A stretch of DNA of 59,885 bases from an uncultured Bacteroidota bacterium (lineage in GTDB: Bacteria > Bacteroidota > Bacteroidia > Chitinophagales > LD1), in the NCBI GenBank assembly GCA_903861145.1, contig CAIOTH010000151.1, positions 1-59,885 of the forward strand. The letters are read 5' to 3'. Shown here piece by piece: positions 22,145 to 50,907 of the stretch (position 1 is the stretch's first letter; every line of letters starts with the position of its first letter). A model generated the notes under the pieces. It was given only the letters and a program-made list of their open reading frames with translations. It had not been told where the DNA came from and ran no database searches. A program made the position numbers and the translations under genes.

Positions 22145-22310
22145 CAGTTTAACACAAAGTGCACAAAGGTTAATACAAAGCACGCAAAGGAAATGAAGTA
22201 ATAAAGAATAAAAAACTGAATTCAATAAAAGCCACCACGCCAATATTTAAATGTATTAATAGCGTGCTTTGTATTGTATTTTCTTTGTGGCCTTTGTGTT
22301 AAACGGCCTT
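22145..22310. repeat. CACAAAG inverted-repeat element, copy A
   Basis: The left arm contains TTTAACACAAAGTGCACAAA and TACAAAGCACGC, the right arm GCGTGCTTTGTA and GGCCTTTGTGTTAAACGGC. The arms are complementary with a central A/T-rich spacer. It fills the space between the OsmC gene and the next gene. Confidence 0.75.
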
Positions 22311-22330
22311 TGGTATTTGTATTACGTACC

Positions 22331-23593
22331 TTACGTTTTGTGTTTCTTCTTTCGCGCCGCCGGGAAAAGCACGTTGTTCAATATCAACCGGTAACCGGGC
22401 GAGTTGGGGTGCAGGTCGAGGTTAGTGGGTGGGTCGCCAACCAGGTGCTGGTAATCTTCGGGGTCGTGTCCGCCATACCAGGTCCATAGGCCTTTGCCAA
22501 ACTCGCCATGTATATAACGCGCCTCGTTAGCTGATTTGTTTTCGCCCATAATAAGGGTGCTGGTTTTTACATACTTTTTGTTGAAGGCCGTTGTTTGCCC
22601 CATAAAACCTTTAACGGTTTTAGTATGGTCCTGGCAAAGCATGGTAGGCACTGGGTCCCACTTGGCACTAAAATCAAATAGCGTGAAGTAATCCAAATCT
22701 TTAGGCACCTGCCGCGTTTGCGAAACATCTATATCGCTCTTGGCATAATCCAACGGGTTAGTGCGTATATGAAAATTCTCGAATGCAAAGCATTGTGTAA
22801 AATCAAGCTTTTGTTGGGCCTGCGGGTCTTCGGCATCGTGGTCGTACATTACATCGCATATGTCGGTGTTCTCGGCTGCCAGCGCAATATCGTACGAGTC
22901 GGCAGCGCTGCACATGGCAAACATAAAACCGCCGCCAAAAACAAAATCGCGTATGCGGTGGGCTACATCAAGTTTCATTTTGCTAACCTTGGCAAAACCA
23001 CGGCGGTGTGCGCGGGCCTCCTGGTCGGCAACATCTTCCTGGTACCAGGCTGCGTTGGCGTAGGCACCGTAAAATTTACCGTACTGGCCGGTAAAATCTT
23101 CGTGGTGCAGGTGCAGCCAATCGTATTGTATAAGCTTGCCGTCTAAAACTTCATCATCGTAAATCAGGTCGTAAGGTATTTCGGCGTAGGAAAGCACCAG
23201 GGTAACAGCATCATCCCATGGCTTTTTTGTTTTCGGCGAATACACTGCAACCTTGGGGGCTTTCTCCAGCTTCATTACGTCCATGTTCTTTTCGGGGTCG
23301 GCTATATCGCTTAATATAGCAGTGTATTGGCCATCGGCAAGCACTTCGTAACTAACGCCGCGTAATTTGCATTCGGTTTCCATACCGCTGCCCATGGGTA
23401 TACCAAAACTGCCACCTCTGTAATTAAGCAACCAATCAATTTTAAGCCCTCCTTTAAGTGCGTAAAAAGCAATGCCATAAGCCTTTAAGTGGTTGCTTTG
23501 GGTAAGGTCCATGGGTATCAGTATTTCGCTTGCCATAGCTGTAAGCGTTAACACTGCAAATAATAATACCGTAATCGTTTTCTTCATCATCAT
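22331..23593 (-). CDS. Exported protein of the family often labelled 'asparagine synthetase B' in Bacteroidota
   Basis: The 420-residue product has a signal peptide (MMMKKTITVLLFAVLTLTAMA) and then EILIPMDLTQSNHLKAYGIA and LLNYRGGSFGIPMG, the start typical of a Bacteroidota family commonly named asparagine synthetase B. I see neither the N-terminal catalytic Cys2 of an Ntn glutaminase nor the ATP-pyrophosphatase SGGxDS loop of a true asparagine synthetase, so that label is unsupported by the sequence. A segment DFVFGGGFMFAMCSAADS resembles the nucleophile elbow of class I glutamine-amidotransferase-like folds, with a Cys in place. An exported GATase-like protein with unknown substrate is the most I can say. 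Confidence 0.75.
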   Translation of the reverse strand: MMMKKTITVLLFAVLTLTAMASEILIPMDLTQSNHLKAYGIAFYALKGGLKIDWLLNYRGGSFGIPMGSGMETECKLRGVSYEVLADGQYTAILSDIADPEKNMDVMKLEKAPKVAVYSPKTKKPWDDAVTLVLSYAEIPYDLIYDDEVLDGKLIQYDWLHLHHEDFTGQYGKFYGAYANAAWYQEDVADQEARAHRRGFAKVSKMKLDVAHRIRDFVFGGGFMFAMCSAADSYDIALAAENTDICDVMYDHDAEDPQAQQKLDFTQCFAFENFHIRTNPLDYAKSDIDVSQTRQVPKDLDYFTLFDFSAKWDPVPTMLCQDHTKTVKGFMGQTTAFNKKYVKTSTLIMGENKSANEARYIHGEFGKGLWTWYGGHDPEDYQHLVGDPPTNLDLHPNSPGYRLILNNVLFPAARKKKHKT

Positions 23594-23689
23594 AATGCCC
23601 GTTGCATTTTAACAAAGTTCGCAGAAAAATCCGGTTTTTTATTTGGAATAGATAAGGGATTGTAAACAATTAACGAAAGACCCTAAATG

Positions 23690-23862
23690 CAGTTTAACAC
23701 AAAGCACACAAAGGTTAATACAAAGGGCACAAAGAAGTATTGAAAATATTGACTAACGAACGTTGGAGTAGTAACCAAATACACAAAGCCCGCTATTAAT
23801 GCAAATTAATAGCGGGCTTTGTGTTGTATTTTCTTTCTGGCCTTTGTGTTAAATGGCCTTTA
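23690..23862. repeat. CACAAAG inverted-repeat element, copy B
   Basis: The left arm carries GTTTAACACAAAGCACACAA and GGTTAATACAAAGGGCAC, the right arm GTTGTATTTTC and GGCCTTTGTGTTAAATGGCC. Its centre is a perfect 20-base-pair hairpin (23781..23800 with 23805..23824) closed by a GCAA tetraloop. It separates two minus-strand genes. Confidence 0.8.
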
Positions 23863-23865
23863 AAT

Positions 23866-24483
23866 CTATTTACGAAGAGAACCTATATACTGCAGCAAAT
23901 CATTCATTTGCTCATCTGTCAGATCGTTATAACCCGGCATAGGTGTTTTTCCGTTTTTAATAATGGCCTTTTGCTGATCTAAACTCAAAGTAGTTATTGA
24001 TAGGTCTTTAGCGCCATTAACACCGGATTTGCCATCGGCACCGTGGCACATTAAGCAGTTTTTATTTTGATATACGATTTTACCTACTTCCAAAGGGTCT
24101 TTGGTTGATGAGGTATCTACTTTACCGCCCGACATGGCCTTGGTATTCATTTCAGCTAAGCCGTAAGCGCCTAGTATCAATGCTACTGGTAGCACCGCTA
24201 AACCCTTATTGCCCTTTTTAAACCCAACAATGGCCAATGGTATAGCAGCAAATACGCATACCAGTTTTATAATCATGAATTTGCCTACATCAGGCATTTG
24301 CATCAACAACCAGCCGCCGGTTACCAAAAAGCCAACGCTAACCAGCATTTCGGGTATTTTGGTAATCTTGGTATAGTTAGCCAGTTGTTCTTTTTTATTA
24401 GTTAAAAGCAACACCAGTTTTATAACGTATTGAAGCAGGAAAAGCGAAACCAGTATGCGGTGCGCTAAAACTATATTATGCAT
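23866..24483 (-). CDS. Membrane-anchored class I cytochrome c
   Basis: The 205-residue product has about four hydrophobic segments (near residues 5-27, 46-62, 68-87 and 94-110) and a C-terminal cytochrome c domain with the haem-attachment motif CLMCH at 143-147 and a likely axial Met182 in TPMPGYNDLT. The haem domain should face the periplasm. The membrane half resembles small four-helix proteins of the SirB2/DUF type. It probably moves electrons, but its partners are not in the window. A consensus promoter lies just upstream and the gene appears monocistronic. Confidence 0.88.
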   Translation of the reverse strand: MHNIVLAHRILVSLFLLQYVIKLVLLLTNKKEQLANYTKITKIPEMLVSVGFLVTGGWLLMQMPDVGKFMIIKLVCVFAAIPLAIVGFKKGNKGLAVLPVALILGAYGLAEMNTKAMSGGKVDTSSTKDPLEVGKIVYQNKNCLMCHGADGKSGVNGAKDLSITTLSLDQQKAIIKNGKTPMPGYNDLTDEQMNDLLQYIGSLRK

Positions 24484-24504
24484 GTTTTATTTGTTTAGTT
24501 GCGC

Positions 24505-24535
24505 CAAAAATAACCATTGAAGCGAGGCTTGCAAA
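24505..24535 (-). promoter_or_regulatory. Consensus Bacteroidota promoter of the cytochrome gene
   Basis: On the minus strand TTTG (24532..24535), exactly 19 bases, then TATTTTTG (24505..24512), a full match to TTTG-N19-TAnnTTTG, ending 21 bases before the ATG at 24483. Confidence 0.8.
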
Positions 24536-24590
24536 TGTTAATTGGTATTTAATCGGTTAAATGGGGAGCACCGCATACCCCAATCGCCAC

Positions 24591-25838
24591 TCATTTTATT
24601 CCTTTGGGCTCTAACATCTCAACTTTGCTGGCTTTGGTGTGTACCACTTTAAGGGTAACCTTTTGTCCCATTTTTATTTTGTAGGTGGCTAGGTTAATAA
24701 CCTTGCGTTGCCCCGAGGGCAGTTTAGCCGTTATATCCAGATCATTCAGTACCACCCTTTTTATATCGCTGGCCCCAATGTTTGATTGAATTATGGCCAT
24801 GGCACCAACCATGGTGCCCGAAAAAGTGGTTGAGTCCAACCCAACCTGTGCCGGGGCAGTTTCTTTTGTAACCGATTTTTCCTGGCCCGCCCCTAAATCA
24901 ATACCCTGGTCATCGCCATATAATTTATAGGTGCAGCCACAACCCGATAAGTGCTCAATAGTAACAGTTATCTCCTGGCCCGGAATAGGATAGGAGTTTG
25001 CCAGGTTGATATACAGTATGTTGTTTTTGTAATCAGAACGGCCGGTTATGTCATTCGAGTTGAGCATAATTTGCTTTATATCCTTGGCCATATTGCAGTC
25101 GCCCGTTCCTTTAATGGCCACTCCCAGCGGTGTGCCATATTTATCCTTCTTGGTATTTGTTTTACCCGAGAAAACAACCGATTCTGTGCCCTCAGATTTA
25201 CAGGCCGTAAAATTTCCCTTCAAATCTATATTGCCACATTTTCCGTCAAGCACTACGGTTGCCTTCCCGTTAATAAACGAATTCATAATGCCGCAATCGT
25301 GGCACTTACGTGGAAAAAGGTAACTCCACTTATCATACTTAAGTGGTATCACTGCGGTGCCTGTTTTATTTATAAATCCGCCCTTACCACCCAGTTCAAC
25401 ATAAGCTAACCCGCCGTCCTGAAAAATATCTGCCTTTTCATATTTCAAAGGAATTACCGCAACTCCTTTTTTATCTATAAAACCATACTTGCCGCTTTGC
25501 GATACCGCGGCAAGGCCTTCCGAAAAGAAACTCGCCTCATCGTATTTAAAAGGAATTTTGGTATCTCCTTTGGCATCTATATAACCCCATTTGCCATTCA
25601 GTTTAACACCGGCTATATCTCCTCCAACCGGCGAAATTGTTTCAGCATTGGTCTCTTCATAAATAGCAGGTATGGTAAGGTTATCAACCATAGGGTAACC
25701 CAGTTTATCCTTTTTAGTAAGGCTTGGGTAACCATAACCCCACTTACCGTTCACATTCACCCTTTGAAGGGATGATTGGGCCATAGATGTTAATGCGGTA
25801 AAAACCACTATGCTAATAATGATGAATTGCTTTTTCAT
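24591..25838 (-). CDS. Exported WG-repeat protein
   Basis: The 415-residue product has a signal peptide (MKKQFIIISIVVFTALTSMAQ) and about five WG repeats, seen as VNGKWGYGYPS, LNGKWGYIDAKGDTKIPFKY, SGKYGFIDKKGVAVIPLKY, LGGKGGFINKTGTAVIPLKY and a later degenerate copy with KCGNIDLKGNF, at intervals of about 45 residues (residues 25-220). The rest (about 240-415) has two related beta segments, each followed by an Ile/Asn/Leu-rich run with DITGR and DITAKLPSGQR. WG repeats form beta structures with a binding or scaffold role. The substrate is unknown. Confidence 0.85.
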   Translation of the reverse strand: MKKQFIIISIVVFTALTSMAQSSLQRVNVNGKWGYGYPSLTKKDKLGYPMVDNLTIPAIYEETNAETISPVGGDIAGVKLNGKWGYIDAKGDTKIPFKYDEASFFSEGLAAVSQSGKYGFIDKKGVAVIPLKYEKADIFQDGGLAYVELGGKGGFINKTGTAVIPLKYDKWSYLFPRKCHDCGIMNSFINGKATVVLDGKCGNIDLKGNFTACKSEGTESVVFSGKTNTKKDKYGTPLGVAIKGTGDCNMAKDIKQIMLNSNDITGRSDYKNNILYINLANSYPIPGQEITVTIEHLSGCGCTYKLYGDDQGIDLGAGQEKSVTKETAPAQVGLDSTTFSGTMVGAMAIIQSNIGASDIKRVVLNDLDITAKLPSGQRKVINLATYKIKMGQKVTLKVVHTKASKVEMLEPKGIK

Positions 25839-25956
25839 TTTGTTTTGATTTAGGGAGTGATTAGGGCGCGAATATCCTTTCAGGATTAAAGATAAAAACA
25901 GAAGTTATCTCAGCTGTTTTTTAATTGTGCGATATTTTTACAATCATGTAAAGGCC

Positions 25957-26310
25957 TCAGCTTCTTAGTTTTATTCGCTCGCGTATCAGCAAATCATCTT
26001 CAGGTGTCGGCTGGTAATCATTCATTAATCCTGCCGGTATATCATTCCAGGCATCGCCGTAGTAAGTTACTTTAAAGCCGCGGCTAAGGCACTCGGCATA
26101 AAGTTGCTCGTACCTCTTTTTTAAAAACAGCAGCTTATCGTAAAAAAACTTTACGTGCCCTTTGCCTAGTGTAAATTTTTGAGGGATATCTTTAATAACC
26201 GCCTTGCCGGTTCTTACAGCATTGGGTATACGCTTCAGCTCGCGGTGCTCGGCAATAAGATGTTTGGTCGATAATTCTTTAGGTGGAACGGAAACGTTTA
26301 TACGGGTCAT
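25957..26310 (-). CDS. Pyrimidine-dimer DNA glycosylase, T4 endonuclease V (DenV) type
   Basis: The 117-residue product begins MTRINVSVPPKELSTKHLIA, the T4 endonuclease V signature. Catalytic Thr2 is present, and AEHRELKR gives Arg23, Glu24 and Arg27, which correspond to the phage Arg22, Glu23 and Arg26. The enzyme excises cyclobutane pyrimidine dimers and nicks the abasic site in base excision repair of UV damage. It is shorter than the 138-residue phage protein, lacking part of the C-terminal tail. It diverges from an ORF6N gene, which is also a family common in phages, so both may be of phage origin. Confidence 0.85.
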   Translation of the reverse strand: MTRINVSVPPKELSTKHLIAEHRELKRIPNAVRTGKAVIKDIPQKFTLGKGHVKFFYDKLLFLKKRYEQLYAECLSRGFKVTYYGDAWNDIPAGLMNDYQPTPEDDLLIRERIKLRS

Positions 26311-26411
26311 TAGGAACAGGTATTATTCAGCCAGATTTTGCTACTAACATCCAAAGTTTCAGGTTTCATTGATAATTATTATTCTTACTTTAGTTTTAAG
26401 ACGTATACGAT

Positions 26412-26918
26412 ATGCAACTTCAGGTCATTCAACAAAGGATTTATCACATAAGGGGATACAAAGTGATGTTGGATTTTGATCTTGCAGAACTATACGAAAC
26501 CGAAACAAAAGTATTAAAGCAAGCTGTAAGACGGAACCTGAACCGTTTTCCTGACGATTTTATGTTTGAACTCACCTCTAAGGAGTATAATATTTTGAGG
26601 TCACAATTTGTGACCTCAAACAAAAGAGGCGGAACGCGTTATTTGCCATTTGCTTTTACCGAGCAAGGCGTTGCCATGCTTGCAAGCGTAATTAATAGCC
26701 CCAAAGCTATAGAAGTAAATATTTCCATAGTCAGGGCTTTTGTTATGCTGCGACAATTAGCCCTTAATTACAAAGAACTATCGGAAAAGATAAAAAACCT
26801 CGAATACAAATATGATATGCAATTTGCCGATGTATTCGAAGCACTTGACCTTTTAATAAAGGATAAGGAAAATACCGATGATTGGAAAGAAAGAAAACCA
26901 ATTGGATATAAAAAATAG
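26412..26918 (+). CDS. ORF6N-domain DNA-binding protein
   Basis: The 168-residue product matches the ORF6N domain: IRGYKVMLDFDLAELYETE, LKQAVRRNLNRFPDDFMFEL and LPFAFTEQGVAMLASVI at residues 13-97, followed by a short coiled-coil tail (residues 115-140). ORF6N belongs to the KilA-N/Bro-like group of DNA-binding domains of phages and phage-derived islands, with roles as regulators or antirepressors that are not well defined. The convergent and divergent neighbours are ordinary genes, so it is probably a relic of an old phage region or a domesticated regulator. The start is the first ATG after the divergent gene. Confidence 0.88.
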   Translation: MQLQVIQQRIYHIRGYKVMLDFDLAELYETETKVLKQAVRRNLNRFPDDFMFELTSKEYNILRSQFVTSNKRGGTRYLPFAFTEQGVAMLASVINSPKAIEVNISIVRAFVMLRQLALNYKELSEKIKNLEYKYDMQFADVFEALDLLIKDKENTDDWKERKPIGYKK

Positions 26919-26932
26919 GATTCCTTGGTCAA

Positions 26933-27631
26933 TTAACTCGCCTTCCGCAACTGCCTTTTCTGGCTAAGCTTAACCTCTTTACCACCGGCAATTTCCTTAA
27001 GTATGATTTTGCTTATCTCCTTTGCGCGGTTAACTACCATAAAATGCGAGCCGCCTTTTATCCAAATGGCCTTACGTACGTAAAAACTTGGGAATATGCG
27101 ATCGCCGGTGCCGTGTATGTGTACCAGGTTATCGGGCACCTCTTCATTATGCCAATGTATTACTTGGTCAACCGCCCATTCGTTAAACTCAATATTGGCT
27201 TCGCGAATCATTAATTCAACCAGTTCCCATTCTTCCGAACTAAGTTTGCCCAATAGCCAATTCAACCAAAACCTGAACTGTACCACCAGTTTACCGGGCA
27301 AAAGCCTATGGAACTTAAGCGAGTTAAGGAACATCAGCTTTAACGGCCGCTCGTGATGCGTTTTTATGCTCGAAATCAATACTACTTTAAAGGGGTTAAT
27401 CAGTTTTGCCAACTCAATGGCTACAATACCACCAAACGAAAGGCCTATAAGTATAGGCTGGGTATCAGGTTTTATTTGAGGGAGGAGTTTCTTTACATAA
27501 GCTTGAATGGTTTCATTCTTCTTATGTTTTGGCCACTTTAGATGGACTATCTCGTAATCCCCGAGGTCGAGATTTTTAAAAACTTTATCATTAGCACCAA
27601 CTCCCGGAATTAAGTAAATTGTTTTACTCAT
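26933..27631 (-). CDS. Alpha/beta hydrolase
   Basis: The start at 27631 (MSKTIYLIPGVGAND, 232 residues) is chosen over the longer frame from 27718, because the first strand-turn of the fold begins exactly here. IYLIPGVGAN is the oxyanion-region strand, and ILIGLSFGGIVAIELAK carries the nucleophile elbow GLSFGG with Ser in GxSxG. The Asp after VHIHGTGDRIFP and His in KGGSHFMV are good candidates for the rest of the triad. It is a small esterase- or thioesterase-like hydrolase of unknown substrate. It overlaps no neighbour and is convergent with the ORF6N gene. Confidence 0.85.
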   Translation of the reverse strand: MSKTIYLIPGVGANDKVFKNLDLGDYEIVHLKWPKHKKNETIQAYVKKLLPQIKPDTQPILIGLSFGGIVAIELAKLINPFKVVLISSIKTHHERPLKLMFLNSLKFHRLLPGKLVVQFRFWLNWLLGKLSSEEWELVELMIREANIEFNEWAVDQVIHWHNEEVPDNLVHIHGTGDRIFPSFYVRKAIWIKGGSHFMVVNRAKEISKIILKEIAGGKEVKLSQKRQLRKAS

Positions 27632-27770
27632 GGTTAATTCAATTCGTTCACTAATTTTAGATCGGTTTCCGTCCGGTAATTTTAATTTTGCGGGGTAAAA
27701 CAGGTCTACATTACACAATCGTTAAATGAATATGGTGTTTTCGTTTTAAAAGTCAAAACTATTTTCCACA

Positions 27771-28649
27771 ATGGCAACCCAAACTGTTAAAAAAAACAAG
27801 CACAAAGAGCTCACCTTTACTCCGGCCAGCAAGACTTTTGTTCGAACTTTTATGGCTCCTTTTAAGTTTTATTTCAGCCCTCAGTTTTACGGCTTAAAAG
27901 AGTTGGATGTTACGAAACCGGCCCTATATGTATCTAACCATACCATTTTGGGCATTCTGGATGGTTTTCCATTCGGCACCGAAGTATACCTGCAAAAAGG
28001 GGTTATGCTTAGGGCGCTGGCCGATAGTACCCACTTTAAATTTCCGGTATGGAGAGAAATTATTTCGCAAAACTTTGGCATTGTTGAAGCATCGCGGGCC
28101 AACTGCGCTACCTTAATGAAGCAGGGCGAAAGCCTGGTAGTTTATCCCGGCGGTGCCCGCGAAATTTGTAAAAAGAAAGGCGAGCAATACGTTTTAAAGT
28201 GGGCCGACCGCAAAGGCTTTACGCGGATGGCCATGGAATACGGTTACGATATTATACCCGTTGCCGCAGTGGGAGCAGAGGAGGCTTTTACAATCATTAA
28301 AGACTCTAACGATATACTCAACTCGCCGTTTGGCAAGTTTTTGAAGTTTATTGGCGTCGCCGAACACTATTTAAAAAACGGCGAACTAATGCCACCGGTG
28401 GTGCGAGGCATTGGCGATACTATTATACCAAGGCCTGCAAAATTGTACTTCAGCTTTGGTAAACGCATATCAACCGCCAAATACAAATCAAAATTTGAGG
28501 ACCCCGAAACGCAGGAGATGATTAAGAAGAAGGTAGAAGACTCCCTGCACAAACAATTTGGCGAGCTTTTCGAAATACGCGATAACGATACCGACCGCAG
28601 CAAATGGAGAAGGCTACTAAATATGAAGAAGCCCGAGGTGAAGAGTTGA
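27771..28649 (+). CDS. Lysophospholipid/glycerolipid acyltransferase family protein
   Basis: The 292-residue product has YVSNHTILGILDGFPFG (residues about 49-65), which fits the His/Asp catalytic block of phosphate acyltransferases but with six residues between His and Asp in place of the usual four, and VYPGGAREICKKKGEQYVLKW with the FPGG-like acyl-acceptor motif, as in diacylglycerol-acyltransferase-like proteins. It should transfer an acyl chain to a glycerol lipid at the inner membrane, although I see no obvious membrane anchor. The variant spacing is shared by a Bacteroidota subgroup, so I do not take it as damage. Confidence 0.82.
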   Translation: MATQTVKKNKHKELTFTPASKTFVRTFMAPFKFYFSPQFYGLKELDVTKPALYVSNHTILGILDGFPFGTEVYLQKGVMLRALADSTHFKFPVWREIISQNFGIVEASRANCATLMKQGESLVVYPGGAREICKKKGEQYVLKWADRKGFTRMAMEYGYDIIPVAAVGAEEAFTIIKDSNDILNSPFGKFLKFIGVAEHYLKNGELMPPVVRGIGDTIIPRPAKLYFSFGKRISTAKYKSKFEDPETQEMIKKKVEDSLHKQFGELFEIRDNDTDRSKWRRLLNMKKPEVKS

Positions 28650-28654
28650 TTAAT

Positions 28655-28744
28655 ACATTTAAACACAAAGGGCACAAAGAATAAATCTTAGTGAACTTAG
28701 TGCTGTATTTTCTTTGTGGCCTTTGTGTTAGATTGCCTTTAAAT
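28655..28744. repeat. CACAAAG inverted-repeat element, copy C
   Basis: A short copy with ATTTAAACACAAAGGGCAC on the left and TTTGTGGCCTTTGTGTTAGA on the right, filling the gap between two co-directional genes and ending two bases before the next start codon. Confidence 0.7.
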
Positions 28745-28745
28745 T

Positions 28746-29693
28746 ATGAATCCATTCCGCACCATTATAACCCCGCAAAAGCCCGGCTTTACAATCTCGC
28801 ACACCGACCGGTTGGTGAGTATTGGTTCCTGCTTTTCCGAAAACATTGGGCAGCGGTTTGGTAATTACAAGTTTAACATCAACATCAATCCTTTTGGGCA
28901 GCAGTATAACCCGCATAGTATGGCGCAGGCAATAGAGCGCTTGCTCAATCCCGTACCGTACACCGAAAAGGATTTGGTTTTGCATAACGAGCAATACCAC
29001 TCGTTTCATCACCACGGCAGTTTTTCAAAAAGCACAGCTGAAGAAACTTTGCTGGGCATAAACAACAGCCTGCATAAGGCTTCAGAAGATTTGCATAAGG
29101 CCACCATTTTGTTTCTCACCTTCGGCACCGCTCATGTTTTTAAGTTGAATGAAACCGGTGCTACTGTTTCTAATTGCCACAAATTACCGGGCACCCTGTT
29201 TAGCCAGCAGCTAATGTCGCCTACCGATATAATAGCTGTTTTGCAACCGGTACTCGATAAACTGAAACAGGTAAACCCTAACTTAAAAATTATACTAACC
29301 GTTAGCCCGGTGCGCTACTTTGCTTTTGGGGCTTACGAGAATAGCGTAAGCAAAGCACATTTGTTTACAGCGATAAACGCCCTGCAACAAAACCACCCTC
29401 AGCATTATTACTTCCCCGCTTACGAATTGGTAATGGACGACCTGCGCGACTACCGCTTTTTTGCCGATGATATGCTGCACCCCAACCAACAAGCCATTGA
29501 TTATGTATGGGAAAGTTTAGCCAACACTTTTTTCGATAGCAAAACTACCGGTGCCCTGCAGCAAATAGAAGAAGTGTTACAAGCCATCAACCACCGGCCC
29601 CGTAACCCCCATAGTGAAGCACACAAAAAATTTGTAGCTAAAAGTTTGGAGAGGATGGAAGGGTTGAAGAAGGAGTTGGGAGTGGAGTTTTAA
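28746..29693 (+). CDS. GSCFA domain protein
   Basis: The 315-residue product carries the family signature GSCFSENIG at residues 27-35, then NININPFGQQYNP and FLTFGTAHVFK. GSCFA proteins are related to SGNH-like hydrolases; Ser/Asn/His in SCFS, NPFG and the C-terminal DDMLHPN are the plausible active-site groups. The function is unknown and thought to be hydrolysis or transfer on a surface sugar or lipid. It is predicted cytoplasmic, as no signal peptide is present. The ATG is only two bases after repeat copy C, and it is followed after 15 bases by the small Gly-rich membrane peptide, suggesting co-transcription. Confidence 0.88.
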   Translation: MNPFRTIITPQKPGFTISHTDRLVSIGSCFSENIGQRFGNYKFNININPFGQQYNPHSMAQAIERLLNPVPYTEKDLVLHNEQYHSFHHHGSFSKSTAEETLLGINNSLHKASEDLHKATILFLTFGTAHVFKLNETGATVSNCHKLPGTLFSQQLMSPTDIIAVLQPVLDKLKQVNPNLKIILTVSPVRYFAFGAYENSVSKAHLFTAINALQQNHPQHYYFPAYELVMDDLRDYRFFADDMLHPNQQAIDYVWESLANTFFDSKTTGALQQIEEVLQAINHRPRNPHSEAHKKFVAKSLERMEGLKKELGVEF

Positions 29694-29708
29694 TAGTTAA
29701 CAGCATTC

Positions 29709-30654: not shown

Positions 30655-30658
30655 TCGC

Positions 30659-30764
30659 TTCCCAGCCGAGTCTCCCTTTCCGGCTTTGCGGAATGGGGAC
30701 TCGGCGTATATAGCCTGACCTCACGCCGAGTCCCCAACCTTCGGAAGGGAGACTCGGCTGGGAA
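30659..30764. repeat. Long imperfect inverted repeat (GAGTC-rich hairpin)
   Basis: The left arm begins TTCCCAGCCGAGTCTCCCTT at 30659 and runs to GGGGACTCGGCG at about 30708; its right partner runs from CGCCGAGTCCCC at about 30724 to 30764. Arms of about 40-48 bases surround a loop of about 15 bases. The GAGTC/GACTC motifs recur in the hairpin at 51728..51749. It lies just after the stop of 30654 and could act as a stabilising hairpin or a terminator without a poly-T. Confidence 0.7.
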
Positions 30765-30862
30765 GGAAAAGGGAGTTGGGTATTGAATTCTAACATTTTC
30801 CTCCAATAAAGAAATGGCTGTCGGAAAAAGATACAAATAAATAAAAAACTGATATTTGCTGA

Positions 30863-36092: not shown

Positions 36093-36139
36093 AGTCAGTA
36101 TTGAGTAGTGAGTATTTAGTATTAAGACAAAGCAAATTC

Positions 36140-36227
36140 CAGTTTAACGCAATAACTACAACCCCACAAAAATGAATTTCTTGTGTGCTTTGTATTAATC
36201 TTTGTGCTCTTTGTGTTAAACTGCATT
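36140..36227. repeat. CACAAAG inverted-repeat element, copy D
   Basis: The right part, with GTGCTTTGTATTAATCTTTG and CTCTTTGTGTTAAACTGCAT, matches the right arms of the other copies; the left part is degraded to AGTTTAACGCAA. It occupies the upstream region of clpB. Confidence 0.65.
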
Positions 36228-36391
36228 TTATTCGCACAAAGTTGGCAAAAAGCGCTCCATAAAAATATGAGTAAAATTTGTCAGGTTTATGATGAAAATC
36301 AATGCCTTAACGTCCGATTTGAGTCAAAACTGGTGGAAATTTTTTCCGAATGGTTCAAAGGGAGGGAGAATTATTGCGGCTATTTATCCTC

Positions 36392-41010: not shown

Positions 41011-41412
41011 TTACCAAACAAACACCAACTCCTGCTTAATATCCGGGTGCAGCGAATGGGCTACGGGGCAGGCGCGGGCGGCGTTTTCTAAAATGGTTTT
41101 GTCCTTATCGGTAAAGTTATTGGGCGGAAATTTAAGCGTGGCGTGAACCTCAGATATCCGGCGGGGGTTAGATGCCATTACTTTGGTAATATCTATTTCG
41201 GTGCCGGTTAAATCAAGGCCCATATCGCGGGCCTTAATACCCATAATGGTCATCATGCAACTGCCCAGGGCGGTGGCTACTAAATCGGTGGGAGAGAAGG
41301 CCTGTGCCAAACCCTGGTTATCGAGCGGCGCATCGGTTATTATTTGAGTGCCGGAGTGTAAATGGGTTAATCGGGTGCGCAGGTTACCCTCGTAAACAAC
41401 TTTTGATGTCAT
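41011..41412 (-). CDS. OsmC family peroxiredoxin-like protein (second of two)
   Basis: The 133-residue product is an OsmC-fold protein with Cys52 in ALGSCMMTIMGIKARDMG and Cys115 in ARACPVAHSLHPD, the two redox cysteines of the family. It is a different subgroup from 21686..22102, judging by its SCMMT and CPVAHSL contexts, which are typical of the YhfA-like OsmC group. Its predicted role is the reduction of organic hydroperoxides. The upstream region holds repeat copy E, and a promoter-like pair for the divergent gene at 41613. Confidence 0.9.
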   Translation of the reverse strand: MTSKVVYEGNLRTRLTHLHSGTQIITDAPLDNQGLAQAFSPTDLVATALGSCMMTIMGIKARDMGLDLTGTEIDITKVMASNPRRISEVHATLKFPPNNFTDKDKTILENAARACPVAHSLHPDIKQELVFVW

Positions 41413-41435: not shown

Positions 41436-41571
41436 AAGGCAATTTAACACAAAGGCCACAAAGTAACGAAATACTAAGGCCGCAAAGAAAACCAAAGATA
41501 AAGGCACCAAAAACTGTATTCTTTGTGTTTTTTGTATTAACCTTTGGGAGCTTTGTGTTAAACTGCATTTG
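41436..41571. repeat. CACAAAG inverted-repeat element, copy E
   Basis: Left arm AATTTAACACAAAGGCCACA with a second TAAGGCCGCAAAG, right arm CTTTGTGTTTTTTGTATTAA and GAGCTTTGTGTTAAACTGCA. It lies between two divergent genes, and its right end contains the TTTG at 41568..41571 that serves as the apparent -33 element for 41613. Confidence 0.72.
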
Positions 41572-41612: not shown

Positions 41613-42365
41613 ATGATGGTGCGCAAATTTTCTATTCTTCTTTTTGCACTGGGTATTACATCGGGCGTTTTTGCGCAGTTTGGCAAAAAACCGGTTGATA
41701 TGCAGGATTACCAATACCACCACGAGGCTTCGGGTGGCTTGCGGTTGCAAAGCAACGGCGTTACCCTGTTTGGCGAGTATGGCTGGATTAAGGACTTAAA
41801 AACAACCCGCCTTTTACAAGTTGAATACACCTACGATATTGATTACCGGATGAAGAAGGATAAAGCGCAAATACAGGATGGGCGCGATTATTTTTACGGA
41901 CTTCAAAATCACTTTCATGTTATACGGGTTAGCTATGGCATTAAACGCACCATTGCCGAAAAGGCCGACCACAACGGTGTGCGCTTAACCTTTGTTGGTT
42001 TTGGGGGTATTGCCCTGGGCCTGCTTAAACCTTATTACCTGAACATACAACAAAGCGATAGCAGCTTAAACGCCGTGCCTACCCGTTACACCCCAGCCAC
42101 CGCCAGCCAGTTTTTAGACCAAAACCATATTTTAGAAGCGGCCCCCATACGCTACGGCCTTAACCAAATACAACCGGTGCCCGGCCTTACCGCCAAAATT
42201 GCTTTAGATTTTGACTGGGGCATTAAAGACGAGTTTGTAAAAGCCCTTGAAGCCGGTGCCGTTATTGATATTTACTACAAGCGCCTGCCCATTTACGCCA
42301 ATAACTACAACCGGTTTTACCAGTTTGGCGTTTATCTTTCTTTCCAGTTTGGGAAGAGGTGGTAG
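41613..42365 (+). CDS. Outer-membrane beta-barrel-like exported protein
   Basis: The 250-residue product has a signal peptide (MMVRKFSILLFALGITSGVFA) and alternating hydrophobic/polar strands with aromatic girdle residues, for example GGLRLQSNGVTLFGEYGWIK, RLLQVEYTYDIDYR, NHFHVIRVSYGIKRT, VRLTFVGFGGIALGLLKPYY, ending YQFGVYLSFQFGKRW. This is the pattern of a small outer-membrane beta-barrel, and the final Trp/Phe-rich strand would act as the insertion signal. Function unknown. It is followed by two long palindromic hairpins. Confidence 0.75.
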   Translation: MMVRKFSILLFALGITSGVFAQFGKKPVDMQDYQYHHEASGGLRLQSNGVTLFGEYGWIKDLKTTRLLQVEYTYDIDYRMKKDKAQIQDGRDYFYGLQNHFHVIRVSYGIKRTIAEKADHNGVRLTFVGFGGIALGLLKPYYLNIQQSDSSLNAVPTRYTPATASQFLDQNHILEAAPIRYGLNQIQPVPGLTAKIALDFDWGIKDEFVKALEAGAVIDIYYKRLPIYANNYNRFYQFGVYLSFQFGKRW

Positions 42366-44870: not shown

Positions 44871-44970
44871 AAGTTTTGGTTTATGGTTTTTAAAATCAAT
44901 TTTATTTAAATGCTGTTTTGAAATCTGGTGATGTTTTATTTATGAGCTGTTCATAAGCTTTGTTTTATAA

Positions 44971-46332
44971 CTACTGAACAATAATTTTTTTAACCACTTC
45001 GTACACTGCAGTTTTTATTTGCACCAAATAGGCGCCCGGTTCAATACCGGTACCGGTTAAATCAATATTTGCGCTACTGCTGTTGCCAAATGTGGCTGAG
45101 TATATTTTTCTTCCGGCCAGGTCGGTAATTTCTACCTGTTCAATTTTTTCGCCCTTAATAAAAATATGGCCACCGGTTGGGTTAGGGTATATTTCAATGG
45201 CATTTAATCTCTCTTCGGTAATGCCCGTAGCGCTTTTGTTAATCTTTATGCTGGCCTGTTGGGTACATAATGCCTGCACTTCGTTGTACTTATTAATCAG
45301 GCGGGGCTTGCTGGCGTATAACCCAAGGTTATACCAACCCGGTGCATGGGTAATGCCGCAAATATTATCGTCGATAGGGATAATGGCATGCAGCACGGGG
45401 CCGCCTCCTTGTGCATCAAGCTGGTTAATGTTGGTTATAGCTATATCAATGCTGCCGGGTGTTGATTCCTGGCTAAAAAATAAACCCTTGTTGTTGGGTA
45501 ATAACCACGATGCACCGGTTAAAAACTGTATGGAACCGCGCGGAATAAAACCGGTATCGTAATTTAAGGTAAATGCAATACCATATGCTTGGTTGGATGT
45601 GCCATTTGACCCAAGGTTAATTGTTATCTGTAAGGTATCTCCATTGGCAACAGTATCGCTGTTGGTGCCTTGCATATAAAGAGGAATGCCGTTGCTACAT
45701 ATACTGGTATCAACCTGGTATTGGGCGGCAACCGGTGCAGTTTGGTGGTAATACCTTTGCACCTGGTACACATCCTGCGAATCAACAATACCATTGCCAT
45801 CACAATCGGCGGCAGCGGGGTTTGAGTTGATAAGGTTTGATGGCGGCCATGATAGTGCATTGAATGAAGATGAATCATTTCGCGCCGGGCCTGTGGAATT
45901 ATAAGTAAGCCCGATTGTAAGTACATCATAGTTTTCTACTACACCATTCTGATCGGCATCGCCTGGGTAAACAAAACTATTGAAAGCCTGCACGTTTATA
46001 AAAATCCCCGCGCTATCGGTAACACCATTTACAGTTATACTATATTTAAAGTTATCGACCCCGGTAAAACCCTGTATGGGGCAGTAGCTGATATAATTGC
46101 CATTTGGCACGGCAGTGCCGTGCGCGGGTTGGGTAATTATCTCTAATTGCACACCTGTAACATTACCTACATTATCGTTGGCTTCGACATCCAGGTAATT
46201 ACTGCACGAGCTTTCTAATACATTAAAAAGGTCGTTTTGTGCCCTTACCTGAGCCGCAGCACTATGGTAAAACGACCATATAAAACATATTGCCGCCACC
46301 CGTAAAGCCGAACGTATAGTAGTGTTTTTCAT
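44971..46332 (-). CDS. T9SS type A protein with dockerin-like and cohesin-like modules
   Basis: The 453-residue product has a signal peptide, an N-terminal cadherin/Ig-like domain (about 30-115, with IITQPAHGTAVPNG and ISYCPIQGFTG), two dockerin-type calcium loops (GDADQNGVVENYDV at 124-137 and ADCDGNGIVDSQDV at 175-188), a cohesin-like beta domain (about 225-325, with GIAFTLNYDTGFIP) and a type A T9SS sorting domain (about 372-453). Having both dockerin-like and cohesin-like modules in one chain suggests self-assembly or a dockerin/cohesin-like intramolecular pair, but both are only recognised by motif. It is divergent from the helical protein at 46432. Confidence 0.82.
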   Translation of the reverse strand: MKNTTIRSALRVAAICFIWSFYHSAAAQVRAQNDLFNVLESSCSNYLDVEANDNVGNVTGVQLEIITQPAHGTAVPNGNYISYCPIQGFTGVDNFKYSITVNGVTDSAGIFINVQAFNSFVYPGDADQNGVVENYDVLTIGLTYNSTGPARNDSSSFNALSWPPSNLINSNPAAADCDGNGIVDSQDVYQVQRYYHQTAPVAAQYQVDTSICSNGIPLYMQGTNSDTVANGDTLQITINLGSNGTSNQAYGIAFTLNYDTGFIPRGSIQFLTGASWLLPNNKGLFFSQESTPGSIDIAITNINQLDAQGGGPVLHAIIPIDDNICGITHAPGWYNLGLYASKPRLINKYNEVQALCTQQASIKINKSATGITEERLNAIEIYPNPTGGHIFIKGEKIEQVEITDLAGRKIYSATFGNSSSANIDLTGTGIEPGAYLVQIKTAVYEVVKKIIVQ

Positions 46333-46431
46333 TGGTCACTATTTTTCATGATACAAAAATGTAAAGATAAAAAGGTAAAAAGGCATACAATTTTTGCTAT
46401 CTTTCGGATATTATTAAAAATAATGTGAATT

Positions 46432-47892
46432 ATGGCACAGGCTACGCTTTCGAAAATTGAAGAGATGTCGTCCTTCAGTCCACGGCTTGATGAAGCTTAC
46501 ACGCTGTTATCCGAAGCGCAAAAAAGAGAACTTAGCCGTTACCTGACATCCGCGTATTTTGTGCGTGATAAAAATCTGTTGCAACTACACAACTTCTTTT
46601 GTAGCCCCTCTTCAACCGAAGCAAGATACGATAAGCTGGCAGCCTGGAAATTTGTTTTTATCCGCACCCCCTTTAACGAAAAAAAGTTCAGGTACCTCGT
46701 GTCAGACTTGCTTTCGGCAGTCGAATCGTTCATTTATTTAGAGCAGGTTTTAGAAAAAAAGCCGGGGTACTACCAGCACCTCCACCGGTATTACACCCTG
46801 CACGAAGCCACCGAAAACCATACAGCGCTGGCTGCTAAAATTCAGAACACCACTAAATTAGCTAAGGTGGTTTTGCATCCATCCTCTTATCTCGAAAGGC
46901 ATTTCGAAAGTGAATTGATTGAGGAGTTGCATACGTCTTCATTAAAAGCCTACCGCAGTTTTGTAAAAGACAAACCCACTGGCGAACCCGGTGGCCTCGA
47001 TAGTTATTATGTTATTGAAAAGCTACGGCAAATGTGCCACCTGGCCAATAACAACAACGTTTTTGGTTTAAACAACCAAAGCTTTAACCAGGCCGAAGTT
47101 TTAAAACTGGCTGTTCACCCAACCTTACAGTCCAACTTTTTTGTGGCCGCATACTATCATGTATATCAACTACTAATAAGCGGTAAAGAGGCCCATTACT
47201 ATAATTTGAATGAGCTGGTTAACAAGTATGGTTTTGATATGGACGAAACCACCCTGGCCGATTTGCTTACCTATGCCCGTAACTTTTGCATAGCCCAGGT
47301 TAATGCAGGACAAAGCCGCTTTTTTGATGAACTGCTTGAACTTTACCGGCAGGGCTTGAAATACGGCTCATTACTGCCTAACGGCGAAATAAACGAGCGC
47401 AACTACAAAAACATAGTAACCACCGCCCTGCGCACCGGCCAGCATGAATGGGCACTCGATTTTATGGAGGAATACCGCTACAAGCTTAATAAAGTAGTGC
47501 GCGATAATGCCTACAACTATAATATGGCCAACTACTACTTCCATGCCGGCAAATACGATAAGGTGCTGCGCAACCTGCAAAAAGTTCAACTGGCCGATTT
47601 GTTCTATGGCCTCGATGCCCGCTCCCTGATGTTAAAATGCTATTTCGAATTAGACGAGACCGAGGCCTTTATGAATACATATTACAGCTTTCGCACCTTT
47701 GTGCAGCGCCGAAAGAACGTTTCTAAACAACACCAAAAATTCTACCTCAACCTGCTGCGCTTATCCAAAAAGCTAATGAACCTTCGGCCTTCTGATAGAA
47801 AAGCGATTGAGAAACTGGATAAGGAAATCAAAACCTCAACCGCCCTGGCTGATAAAAATTGGTTGGAGGAGAAGTTGAAAGTATATCTATAA
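46432..47892 (+). CDS. Cytoplasmic alpha-helical protein, TPR-like C-terminal half
   Basis: The 486-residue product has no signal peptide or membrane helix. It is rich in Leu, Tyr, Lys, Asn and Arg with helical periodicity, and the second half contains TPR-like pairs such as GQHEWALDFMEEYRYKLN, ANYYFHAGKYDKVLRNLQ and KCYFELDETEAFMNTYYSF. There is no catalytic motif. It resembles the product of 1982..3538 in length and general character, without an alignment I can defend. TATCTTTC at 46398..46405 (seven of eight against TAnnTTTG) could be its -7 element, but no good -33 is seen. Confidence 0.72.
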   Translation: MAQATLSKIEEMSSFSPRLDEAYTLLSEAQKRELSRYLTSAYFVRDKNLLQLHNFFCSPSSTEARYDKLAAWKFVFIRTPFNEKKFRYLVSDLLSAVESFIYLEQVLEKKPGYYQHLHRYYTLHEATENHTALAAKIQNTTKLAKVVLHPSSYLERHFESELIEELHTSSLKAYRSFVKDKPTGEPGGLDSYYVIEKLRQMCHLANNNNVFGLNNQSFNQAEVLKLAVHPTLQSNFFVAAYYHVYQLLISGKEAHYYNLNELVNKYGFDMDETTLADLLTYARNFCIAQVNAGQSRFFDELLELYRQGLKYGSLLPNGEINERNYKNIVTTALRTGQHEWALDFMEEYRYKLNKVVRDNAYNYNMANYYFHAGKYDKVLRNLQKVQLADLFYGLDARSLMLKCYFELDETEAFMNTYYSFRTFVQRRKNVSKQHQKFYLNLLRLSKKLMNLRPSDRKAIEKLDKEIKTSTALADKNWLEEKLKVYL

Positions 47893-48138
47893 TATATGCC
47901 AATTCACACCCAAAACCCACAACTTCCCCACCACCCGTCTATCCCACAAAACGTTAATTATTGGATGAAAAACCGCTCAAATCGGCGCTAAACAGGCTTT
48001 TTGGCATCGGTTTAGCTGTTTTATCCACAGCGCTGGCATTGGGTTTGAGGCCGCCTGCGAATTTTTCACAAAATAATTTCATCTTTGCAGTCTGTCTTGT
48101 TTTGAAATTTTTGCGTTTATTTAATCAAATTATAGCTA

Positions 48139-49350
48139 ATGGGTTTATTTGATAAGTGTTACGACTACAATATTACTGAGATAGTTAAGGAGCAGGGTGT
48201 ATACCCTTACTTCCGCCCTATTGAGGAAAGCGAAGGCCCTGTTGTATTAATGGAAGGCCGCCATGTGGTTATGGCCGGTAGCAACAACTACCTGGGCTTA
48301 ACCGCTCACCCAAGGGTAAAAGAAGCCGCCATCAAGGCTATCGAAAAATACGGCACAAGTTGTTCAGGCTCACGCTTTTTAACCGGCACCATCGATCTTC
48401 ACAATAAGCTGGAAGAAAAGATTGCCCGTTTTATGGGGAAAGAAGCTGTGCTATTATTCAGCACGGGTTTCCAGGCAGGTCAGGGGGTTATCTTCCCGCT
48501 CATCAGCAAAGGCGATTATATCCTATCTGATAAAGACAACCACGCCAGTATAGTTGCCGGTAATTTATTGGCTGCCTCAATCCACGCCCATGTAATTCGT
48601 TACAAACATAACGACATGGAAGACCTTGAGCGCCGCTTAGCTAACATACCCGAGGGTGCCAACAAACTGATTGTTACCGATGGCGTATTTAGCGCACACG
48701 GCACCATTGTTAAGTTAGACGAACTTAAAAACCTTGCCAAAAAGTACAAAGCCAATGTGTTTTTAGATGATGCACACGGCTTTGGCGTACTCGGCGAAAA
48801 AGGCCAGGGCACTGCCCATTTCTTTAACGCGCAAGACGATATTGACCTGATAGTTTGCACCTTCAGCAAAACCCTTGCCTCGTTAGGCGGTTTTGTTGCC
48901 GGGCCAGAGCGCGTTATTAATTACCTGAAACACAAATCACCGGCATTAATATTCTCGGCATCGCCTACACCGGCAGCGGTGGCAGCGGCCGATGCAGCCC
49001 TCGACATATTAATAGAGCAACCCGAACTGGCTGCCCGCGTTAGAAAAAACGCCGACCGCGTGCGTGTTGGCCTGCGCGATATGGGCTTTAACGTGGTTGA
49101 TGGCGAATCGGCCATCGTTCCCGTAATTATTGGCGACGATAACAAAACCTTTGCAATTTGGAAGATGCTATATGATGAAGGCGTGTTTGTTAACGCATTC
49201 ATATCACCGGCTACCCCTCCGGGTATGCAAATGTTACGCACCAGCTACATGGCCACACACGAAGACCATCACCTGGATGTTATACTCGATAAATTTCATA
49301 AAGTGGGAAAAACCCTGGGCCTGTTAAACCCCGAGTATTCGCACACTTGA
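48139..49350 (+). CDS. PLP-dependent alpha-oxoamine synthase, serine palmitoyltransferase-like
   Basis: The 403-residue product is an alpha-oxoamine synthase: PLP-lysine Lys244 in TFSKTLASLGG, Asp210 and His213 in LDDAHGFGVLGEKG, and His135 in DNHASI that stacks on PLP. The enzymes join an acyl-CoA to serine, glycine or alanine. In Bacteroidota the members with this N-terminus (YPYFRPIEESEGPVV) are serine palmitoyltransferases, the first step of sphingolipid synthesis, whereas AONS (biotin) and KBL differ there; I consider SPT most likely. The next gene encodes a conserved protein that is probably co-transcribed through the hairpin at 49358..49429. Confidence 0.85.
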   Translation: MGLFDKCYDYNITEIVKEQGVYPYFRPIEESEGPVVLMEGRHVVMAGSNNYLGLTAHPRVKEAAIKAIEKYGTSCSGSRFLTGTIDLHNKLEEKIARFMGKEAVLLFSTGFQAGQGVIFPLISKGDYILSDKDNHASIVAGNLLAASIHAHVIRYKHNDMEDLERRLANIPEGANKLIVTDGVFSAHGTIVKLDELKNLAKKYKANVFLDDAHGFGVLGEKGQGTAHFFNAQDDIDLIVCTFSKTLASLGGFVAGPERVINYLKHKSPALIFSASPTPAAVAAADAALDILIEQPELAARVRKNADRVRVGLRDMGFNVVDGESAIVPVIIGDDNKTFAIWKMLYDEGVFVNAFISPATPPGMQMLRTSYMATHEDHHLDVILDKFHKVGKTLGLLNPEYSHT

Positions 49351-49357
49351 TAAAATA

Positions 49358-49429
49358 CAGCCCCTTCCGTCCCCTAAAGGGGAAACCAGAGCCGGCTTTG
49401 GTTTCCCCTTTAGGGGACGGAAGGGGCTG
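49358..49429. repeat. Perfect 31-base-pair hairpin between SPT-like gene and partner
   Basis: The 31-base arms (49358..49388 and 49399..49429) are exact reverse complements around a 10-base loop GAGCCGGCTT. It lies eight bases after the stop of the SPT-like gene and 48 bases before the next start. No T-run follows on the plus strand, so it may stabilise the upstream RNA instead of terminating. Confidence 0.75.
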
Positions 49430-49477
49430 GCTGTTAGTATTCAAAACTTGAAACATTAAACCAGAAACTTCCCTGTT

Positions 49478-50785
49478 ATGAGTTCAAAAAAGCGACACTA
49501 CTATTTTATTGAAGGCTACGACCCCGCTAACCCATCTAAACTAAAGTACCTGCGCCGCGATATTGAATGCGACGATGCCTTTGATGGCGACCTGGTAATG
49601 CTGTGTTTTCCCATCGGCCTGATGAAAGAAATATCATCGGTGCTTTCCGAATTTCACTTACGCAACGATGCCGACTTCTTCTACAGCGAATGCCGCGAAG
49701 TAGTTTCCGTACCCGAAAAACACGTAAACGAAAAAGGCGAGGGCAACCTTACCTTCCAAAGTTACTTCCACAAATTTCCCGAGTCGGTGCAATACTTTTT
49801 TGATGACGCCATGGTAGTTGTTATGATGCACCCGCAGGAGGCTGTTGATGCACAAGGCAACCACGATTACAACATGATTGGCTACATACACGCCAACGAC
49901 ATTGATTTTAAAGATGTGCAAGGCAACCTGCACAAAGGCTACTACTACAACGTGCTACGACTTAGCGAGCGCACCGTAGGTGGCAAACCTATTTACCGCC
50001 GCAAGCGCATATTCACCACCATGTTTAGCATATTGTTGGATATGGTTACGCTGCTTGATATGCACTTTGTTTACGCCAGCATGGGCCGCGAAAACCAGGC
50101 TATTAACGACGCGCTGAAAATGAACAGCGCCCGCCACGGCAAGCTTTTCGAAACCTTCCCTATGCTCAACAACTCGCACCCCAACATCATTCTTGGTAGT
50201 TCGGGCGCTTCAAAAAAGTTAGTCGATATTTCGCATAACAAAGAGAAACTGCACGAGTACTATTTAATGATTAAGGCCACGCGCGAAAAATTTGTCTTCA
50301 ACCAATTGTATAGCGAAGAGAAATTTTTAGGCATGGTTGACCGCATTTTAAAATCATCGGCTACCAGCAAAATATACATGATACCCGACGAAAAAGGCAA
50401 CATCCTTTCAGCCGGTTTCTTTATGAACTGGGGCGATTACCTGCACGTTAAACTGCAAAACCCTTCAGGCATTTTAAAAGTAGTCGACTCACTAAAAATT
50501 ACCGACCAGTTACTGGTTCCTTTTCTTTTGGTAGGGCCGGTTGATGCAGTTAAGAAAATGGTAAAAGGCGCAGCCTACAAATTCCGTAAAGACCACAAAG
50601 TACACATCACCGTACTAAACGGCACACCCGGCGACCCTTATTACGATTTCAAAAAAGGCCTCATAAAAGATAACTTCAACTACTTCGTTATTTACGACCG
50701 CCCCGAAACCTTCGAAGCCATGAAAAACCACAGCAAAGACGCTGCGGGCAACATCCGGTTGTTTACTGATACGCCGATGTTGTAA
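49478..50785 (+). CDS. Conserved protein linked to SPT-like gene (predicted lipid-related, GNAT-like C-terminus)
   Basis: The 435-residue product has no signal peptide or membrane helix. The first 200 residues include HFHLRNDADFFYSECREVV, DYNMIGYIHANDIDFKDV and RRKRIFTTMFSILLDMVTLL; the last 150 have a fold suggestive of a GNAT-like acyltransferase (SAGFFMNWGDYLHVKLQNPSG, then VPFLLVGPVDAVKKMVKGAA), but no acetyl-CoA P-loop is clear. Following a serine-palmitoyltransferase-like gene in the same orientation by 127 bases, it may act in sphingolipid synthesis, for example as an N-acyltransferase or chaperone. This is inference from position. Confidence 0.7.
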   Translation: MSSKKRHYYFIEGYDPANPSKLKYLRRDIECDDAFDGDLVMLCFPIGLMKEISSVLSEFHLRNDADFFYSECREVVSVPEKHVNEKGEGNLTFQSYFHKFPESVQYFFDDAMVVVMMHPQEAVDAQGNHDYNMIGYIHANDIDFKDVQGNLHKGYYYNVLRLSERTVGGKPIYRRKRIFTTMFSILLDMVTLLDMHFVYASMGRENQAINDALKMNSARHGKLFETFPMLNNSHPNIILGSSGASKKLVDISHNKEKLHEYYLMIKATREKFVFNQLYSEEKFLGMVDRILKSSATSKIYMIPDEKGNILSAGFFMNWGDYLHVKLQNPSGILKVVDSLKITDQLLVPFLLVGPVDAVKKMVKGAAYKFRKDHKVHITVLNGTPGDPYYDFKKGLIKDNFNYFVIYDRPETFEAMKNHSKDAAGNIRLFTDTPML

Positions 50786-50795
50786 ACAGCTTAAT

Positions 50796-50907
50796 ACATT
50801 TAAACACTAAGAGCACAAAGGTTAAACACAAAGGCCACAAGAAATACAATTCTTTGTGGCCTTTGTGTTTGTATTTACTTAGTGCCCTTTGTGGTAAATG
50901 GCCTTTT
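50796..50907. repeat. CACAAAG inverted-repeat element, copy F
   Basis: ATTTAAACACTAAGAGCACA on the left and CTTAGTGCCCTTTGTGGTAA on the right, with inner CACAAAGGCCACAAG opposite CTTTGTGGCCTTTGTG. It lies between two convergent genes. Confidence 0.75.

Follow-up and report, generated by a model that had tools for sequence, protein, structure and literature searches.

Contig C151 of an uncultured Bacteroidota bacterium (59,885 nucleotides, this whole stretch being referred to as the window; source genome G000 of 4.70 Mb on 174 contigs) raises the question of what kind of element is represented by six copies of an inverted repeat, and by what means they came to lie between its genes. A preliminary description had listed six intergenic copies of a CACAAAG-based inverted repeat; all six are present, each between long open reading frames, and they consist of 7-nt CACAAAG-type units in inverted orientation (Table 1). 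They probably represent the gene-less, non-autonomous (solo) form of a palindromic mobile element that encodes a nuclease when complete. A complete element of this kind would be about 0.5 kb long and comprise (i) a left arm, (ii) a single gene for a PD-(D/E)XK nuclease of about 125 amino acids (aa), belonging to the GxxExxY family (TIGR04256/PF13366), and (iii) a right arm. Each arm would be a short array of near-identical 7–8-nt units at a spacing of about 9 nt, the right arm being the inverse of the left.

GxxExxY genes between inverted arms

A genome-wide search by sequence pattern (the preliminary description had proposed one with a covariance model) yielded many more copies: the pattern AACACAAAGNNCACAAAG matched 104 times in the source genome with up to two mismatches (8 times in case of the reversed-pattern control) and 51 times with up to one mismatch (control, once). 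On contig C33 the pattern search revealed two +/- pairs of CACAAAG arms about 480 bp apart. A profile search of the source genome with GxxExxY (TIGR04256) retrieved eight genes above the cut-off, two of them exactly between these C33 arms. Among the eight products, L013 scores 131 bits with TIGR04256 (cut-off 35) and 127 with PF13366 (PDDEXK_3; cut-off 22); its reading frame is open, and that of L012 has a stop at codon 8. Reading of the flanks showed all eight genes to be bordered by inverted repeats, the types of which vary (Table 1). Conversely, where a + arm was followed by a - arm 300–720 bp on, a GxxExxY gene was enclosed in 7 of 7 cases among the matches listed.

The left flank of each locus was scored against its inverted right flank, with mock positions as control. 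All eight loci of the source genome score 15.5–32.5, the best of 198 mocks reaching 14.5. Within the genus, 16 of 18 genomes (source included, fragments counted) contain at least one GxxExxY match (0 to 8 each), and the 51 loci scored out of 53 (the flank of two being cut by a contig end at the gene) have a median of 21.5 versus 8.5 for 198 mocks, with 42 of the 51 exceeding every mock. Most of the 80 GxxExxY relatives kept from other genomes are assigned to Bacteroidota; 54 of the 78 loci scored there (two dropped due to a short flank) exceed all 283 mocks. A stricter control with neighbouring genes of 100–350 aa gave scores of at least 14 for 3/83 genes versus 95/128 GxxExxY loci (fragments included; flanks of 200 bp on either side were available for 128 of 133 loci). 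The association of GxxExxY genes with inverted arms is an observed feature of these genomes, as is the insertion of the resulting elements described below.

Residues E30, D70, E80 and K82 are invariant or conserved to at least 90 % in 39 aligned GxxExxY proteins. The closest structure to a model of the protein (predicted local distance difference test score 94) is that of Cas4 SSO0001 (4ic1), with a moderate Z of 9.9 (root mean square deviation 4.7, 103 aligned), followed by 3ijm (Z 8.4; 3.3, 100 aligned) and by many nucleases tied below Z 8, e.g., Hjc (1gef; Z 7.4; 3.1, 86 aligned). A Foldseek search with the model returned nothing at E ≤ 0.001, and the search for a solved homologue by sequence yielded S100-A8 chains alone (E 0.12 or worse). 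Nucleases of the Cas4/lambda exonuclease/Hjc type are structural neighbours of the model (Cas4 and Hjc scored), from which GxxExxY differs as a minimal protein of about 125 aa located between inverted arms. Among mobility enzymes, the PD-(D/E)XK fold class also includes TnsA, which acts together with a DDE partner, and I-Ssp6803I, a homing endonuclease that cleaves a single defined target; the insertion sites read here, by contrast, share no obvious sequence.

Five orthologous gene pairs at fixed sites (L067/L091, L065/L071, L083/L085, L074/L088 and L073/L076) have a ratio of nonsynonymous to synonymous substitutions (dN/dS) of 0.02–0.06; therefore, the GxxExxY gene is not simply decaying after insertion. 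Six further pairs comprise five that are saturated at synonymous sites and L012/L013 with a dN/dS of 0.05 at a dS of 2.65. Neighbouring frames mostly range from 0.01 to 0.16, the few higher values possibly representing shadow frames.

Arm units and nuclease clades

The units are arranged as a pair of CACAAAG-type 7-mers separated by 2 nt and, beyond a short spacer, a second pair of this kind, a typical left arm reading TTTAACACAAAG-NN-CACAAAGG-TTAA-TACAAAG-NN-CACAAAG and the right arm its inverse. A strict pattern of this type could be fitted to 13 of the 16 solos tried as well as to 3 genus and 8 other gene-bearing loci. In the 13 solos, unit match amounts to 0.93 whether the two arms compared come from one element or from two; for the gene-bearing sets, in which families are mixed, it is 0.93 within an element versus 0.76 and 0.88 across elements. 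A covarying hairpin as the conserved feature was rejected for the CACAAAG type, since the units match to 93 % between arms and the 2-nt spacers at 13 of 48 positions, i.e., about chance. For the CACGAATT type, of which 24 of 40 elements could be fitted, a match of the 1-nt spacer was observed in 14/24 versus 37 % expected, and the families therefore differ in this respect. Arms of the CACAAAG type are preserved as sequence units and not as covarying stems.

The preliminary description had also named conservation of secondary structure as a point to be checked. The folding energies of all six window copies, calculated for single-stranded DNA, lie below the shuffle mean (z -2.25 to -8.58; 200 shuffles per copy, with copies 1 and 2 shortened to 148 nt), with 7/200 shuffles of copy 1 and 1/200 of copy 5 folding at least equally well; conservation of the pairing itself is not supported by the chance-level spacers of the CACAAAG type. 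Though the copies fold, their unit pattern would fit protein recognition of repeated units better than a conserved paired stem.

Arm sequence follows the nuclease clade. Among 48 genus loci (five fragments or cut loci excluded; 1100 pairs, after removal of 28 pairs with shared flank DNA), the share of pairs with an arm score of at least 14 rises with protein identity from 2 % below 30 % and 5 % at 30–40 % to 10 %, 20 % and 45 % in the subsequent classes, and comprises 8 of 8 pairs at 70 % identity or above, the latter drawn from four clades and not independent. The corresponding Mantel rho is modest (0.215), but was reached in none of 2000 permutations. Since this increase is found at unrelated sites, gene and arms tend to reach new places together.

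Forecasts of solo abundance per genome were fixed before the pattern searches, in which counts represent matches including gene-bearing arms rather than verified hairpins. As forecast, AACGCTGATTTATTATGAT was found in G000 (47), G001 (74), G004 (9), G008 (53) and G009 (49), with 0–1 matches in the other 13 genomes, and TTTACCGCAAAGNNCGCNAAG in G000 (46) and G009 (35). Matches to GCCACGAATTNCACGAATTA are concentrated in G012 (48), G014 (54) and G016 (36), with 0–5 in the others, and those to the CACAAAG pattern (up to one mismatch) in G000 (51), G001 (141) and G009 (44), with 0–8 elsewhere. Clade-specific arm patterns are accordingly abundant mainly in genomes holding the respective clade, with exceptions that are weighed below.

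From sequence comparison we infer that the nuclease drives the movement of the element. Each nuclease clade would be accompanied by a characteristic unit sequence, and solos built from these units would spread in genomes holding that clade. The nuclease may recognize the unit arrays of its own arms, either as double-stranded array or as extruded hairpin, and cut at these arms; break repair or replication by the host would then copy or move the segment enclosed by the arms, gene included or not, to a position between genes. Such a route would explain the lack of a fixed target duplication.

On balance, if narrowly, the GxxExxY elements may be regarded as a separate minimal class of mobile elements, in which a lone nuclease with a unit code phased at about 9 nt disperses itself and gene-less palindromes without a transposase, clade and unit co-evolving; the features examined fit no known mobile-element class. 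If the association alone holds and another enzyme moves the repeats, they would instead be a previously undescribed form of MITE-like repeat (MITE, miniature inverted-repeat transposable element). No account of GxxExxY elements or their palindromes was found in searches of an open-access library, which did not extend to subscription journals, preprints or the comment pages of family databases. The role of the GxxExxY family, present in many genomes, is unknown; its link to dispersed palindromes suggests a function that can be tested and accounts for a class of repeats between genes. Should the nuclease move the palindromes, it would represent a second, independent solution to the way of life of the REPIN/RAYT systems (repetitive extragenic palindromic (REP) doublets forming hairpins, and REP-associated tyrosine transposases), and also a compact nuclease system with sequence specificity, in which many nucleases come already paired with their targets.

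Insertion polymorphism and alternative explanations

The second C33 element is gene-bearing in G000 and G001 (with extra sequence in G001), solo in G009, and missing from the site in G008, G011, G012, G014, G016 and G017 (other sequence being present there in G008, G014 and G017). The first is gene-bearing in G000 and missing in G008, G011, G012, G014 and G016; in G009 (L119, about 940–1030) and G001 (L120, about 4170–4270), the site holds a hairpin of another family (AAGAACCAGGAATC type), suggesting recurrent use of one intergenic site. An element on C106 is gene-bearing in G000 and G009 and missing in G006, G013, G014 and G015. Likewise, none of the three G014 solos checked is present at the corresponding site of G011; G012 lacks solos 1 and 2 as well, and solo 3 of G014 is bordered by AAAAGATAAG on either side. 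In the window, copy 4 is a clean insertion of about 100 bp. Solos have the same ends as a gene-bearing copy in their own genome, and orthologous sites in other genomes lack them, as is generic for miniature non-autonomous elements.

Target-site duplications, a further check proposed initially, did not emerge in a regular or fixed form from 63 elements. The family consensus from G016 runs past the core arms, so that exact ends are uncertain and a short duplication could therefore be missed in this test. Insertion sites compared by eye have no obvious common sequence beyond lying between genes.

The strongest alternative is that the palindromes spread otherwise (by slippage during replication, by template switching or by a transposase that escaped notice), and that GxxExxY is a host-useful nuclease that lands or is kept inside them. 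This is unlikely. Some of the following observations agree with it, and all of them weigh against the nuclease as the mover. Purifying selection on the gene is strong, with values at orthologous sites inside the span seen for neighbouring genes; this would equally be expected of a gene that benefits the host and just happens to sit in palindromes. The nuclease activity of GxxExxY is a prediction. The association with arms is not uniform: 33/128 GxxExxY loci score below 14, although arms are visible by eye in some weak ones (L058, L087, L057). In a cross-locus control, in which the left flank of one locus was paired with the right flank of another (612 pairs), the median was 9.5 and the 99th percentile 27.7, the latter being exceeded by 9/51 genus loci; we think that this high tail arises from same-family or same-site loci matching each other. 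The abundance forecasts also had failures. G013, named in brackets in the GCCACGAATTNCACGAATTA forecast, gave 0 matches, and TTTACCGCAAAGNNCGCNAAG occurred unforecast in G008 (19) and G001 (14), with 1–8 matches in 11 more genomes (G016 8, G004 7, G003 6). The 44 CACAAAG matches of G009 are found without a detected gene of the L013 clade, and an element is solo there where G001 and G000 carry the gene; G005 has no GxxExxY match, yet 8 CACAAAG matches, 6 of them in one tandem array. Counts were uncorrected for ancestry, and common descent instead of a causal link may account for solos being abundant where the gene is present. Finally, direct repeats of at least 10 bp border 3/63 elements (lengths 10, 11 and 15, i.e., no fixed length), with 0.56 expected for 50-bp flanks and 1.11 for 70 bp. 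The lack of CACAAAG matches in G011 is no counter-example, since the arm adjoining its GxxExxY fragment (L068, cut by a contig end) is of the CCGCAAAG type. Against a mere passenger role of the gene stand the seven facing arm pairs that all held GxxExxY, the arm sequence following nuclease clade across unrelated sites, and the clade-specific abundance of the patterns. An element mobilized by its own nuclease remains the preferred reading.

That the repeats are classical MITEs of a DDE insertion sequence, with the autonomous copy elsewhere or lost, is very improbable. Terminal inverted arms and insertion polymorphism would agree with it, as would the near-constant size of the 12 G016 solos fetched (68–70 bp between outer units), and pairs of insertion sequences and MITEs likewise combine a one-gene form between inverted ends with shorter gene-less derivatives having the same ends. 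Here, however, the ends are unit arrays, a target duplication of fixed length did not turn up, nuclease clade and arm type go together, and the facing arm pairs read as well as gene-bearing relatives with the same ends encode GxxExxY instead of a transposase (DDE families were not searched one by one).

Slightly less probable still are immobile structural or regulatory elements such as terminators, mRNA stabilizers or protein-binding clusters. The intergenic position and the better-than-shuffled folding would suit them, but not the absence of the element from the same sites in congeners, genes travelling within arms, or pattern matches ranging from 0 to 141 between species. Insertion polymorphism argues against immobile elements as full explanation, a secondary regulatory role being possible.

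Least probable of all are REPINs moved by a Y1 (HUH) transposase: the repeats are palindromic, intergenic and present in many copies, and the source genome has three Y1_Tnp genes, but the flanks of all three carry other hairpins of their own, within 1.5 kb of them there are single CACAAAG 7-mers only (the nearest at about 400 bp) and no unit arrays, and the gene between matching arms is not Y1. With respect to the REP/MITE-type assignment and the RAYT-like or other partner gene envisaged in the preliminary description, dispersed, mostly gene-less palindromes with sites empty in relatives were borne out and a gene with matching ends exists; it encodes a PD-(D/E)XK nuclease and not a RAYT, and the REP/RAYT assignment is not upheld.

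REPIN/RAYT systems (TnpA-REP) consist of short dispersed intergenic palindromes plus a chromosomal gene for a Y1 HUH transposase flanked by matching palindromes. They provide the nearest working analogy, sharing dispersed intergenic palindromes and a partner gene with matching flanks; the present elements do not qualify as members, because of their enzyme and because of what flanks the Y1 genes of the source genome. They further differ by arrays of 7–8-nt units and many arm types that follow nuclease clades. A criterion for REP sequences is a 20–40-nt palindrome with a GTAG/CGTC-type tag (PMC3733652).

Repeat copies in the window and further observations

Copy 4 is degenerate, its left side being without intact unit (the outer TTTAACGCAA as sole remnant) and its right side having three units. 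The sites of copies 3, 5 and 6 are occupied differently in relatives: that of copy 3 holds an ATGATT-type half element in G001, that of copy 5 a different sequence without CACAAAG units in G001 and G009, and that of copy 6 a different sequence in G001. In G001, G008 and G009, the outer neighbours of the segment formed by copy 1, host gene B and copy 2 are adjacent (about 35 bp between matches) and gene B is found elsewhere; therefore, the stretch 22103–23865 was rearranged at the repeats. The additional stem of copy 2 has a 4-nt loop and is nested within the arms.

Table 1 Repeat copies and host gene B in the window, and arm types of the GxxExxY loci in the source genome
Feature	Position	Strand	Details
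Copy 1, solo	22145..22310	.	units: 4 left, 3 right; flanking genes 21686-22102 and 22331-23593
Host gene B	22331..23593	-	flanked by copies 1 and 2; at another locus in relatives
Copy 2, solo	23690..23862	.	extra internal 20-bp stem, about 23782-23823
Copy 3, solo	28655..28744	.	fills the gap from the stop of 27771-28649 to the start of 28746-29693
Copy 4	36140..36227; insertion 36132..36232	.	101 bp in G000 vs 6 bp in G001
Copy 5, solo	41436..41571	.	flanking genes 41011-41412 and 41613-42365
Copy 6, solo	50796..50907	.	flanking genes 49478-50785 and 50919-51656
GxxExxY L009, L010			arm type CGCAAAG
GxxExxY L011			arm type CACAAAG/CACTAAG, 1-2-nt spacing
GxxExxY L012, L013			arm type as in the window, CACAAAG
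GxxExxY L014, L016			arm type ATGATT
GxxExxY L015			arm type GGATTAA, one hairpin per side

Among the motif clusters listed, 6 of 45 fall in the window contig (60 kb, 1.3 % of the genome). This clustering may reflect local spreading, a possibility to be read with the fact that the window had been singled out for these copies. A different high-copy inverted repeat of about 110 bp (CCAGCCGAGTCTCCC type) is located at 30658–30766 of the window; its copies (86–91 % identity) occur on six contigs of G001 and at G000:C33:115435.

Spread via phages or plasmids was considered and rejected: one query protein matched 0 of 50,697 phage and 8 of 72,556 plasmid records. Among these 8 matches, inverted arms are clear in the flanks of those from Gemmatirosa, Bacteroides and Bernardetia, but short or weak for Treponema and Prevotella. 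The Sphingomonas match has units on its upstream side alone, the one from Fusobacteria shows a direct repeat on visual inspection, and for Persicobacter none were seen. The GxxExxY gene of Sphingomonas parapaucimobilis (L275, 1413–1878) is located between fabD and fabG. Tandem arrays were also observed, namely of CACAAAG-family half elements in the source genome (L041, G000:C148, 2127–3699), and, on the downstream side of a gene in G011 (L113, G011:C138), of a GCAACAAAGTGTTTTCTTCAC-like unit repeated about eight times.

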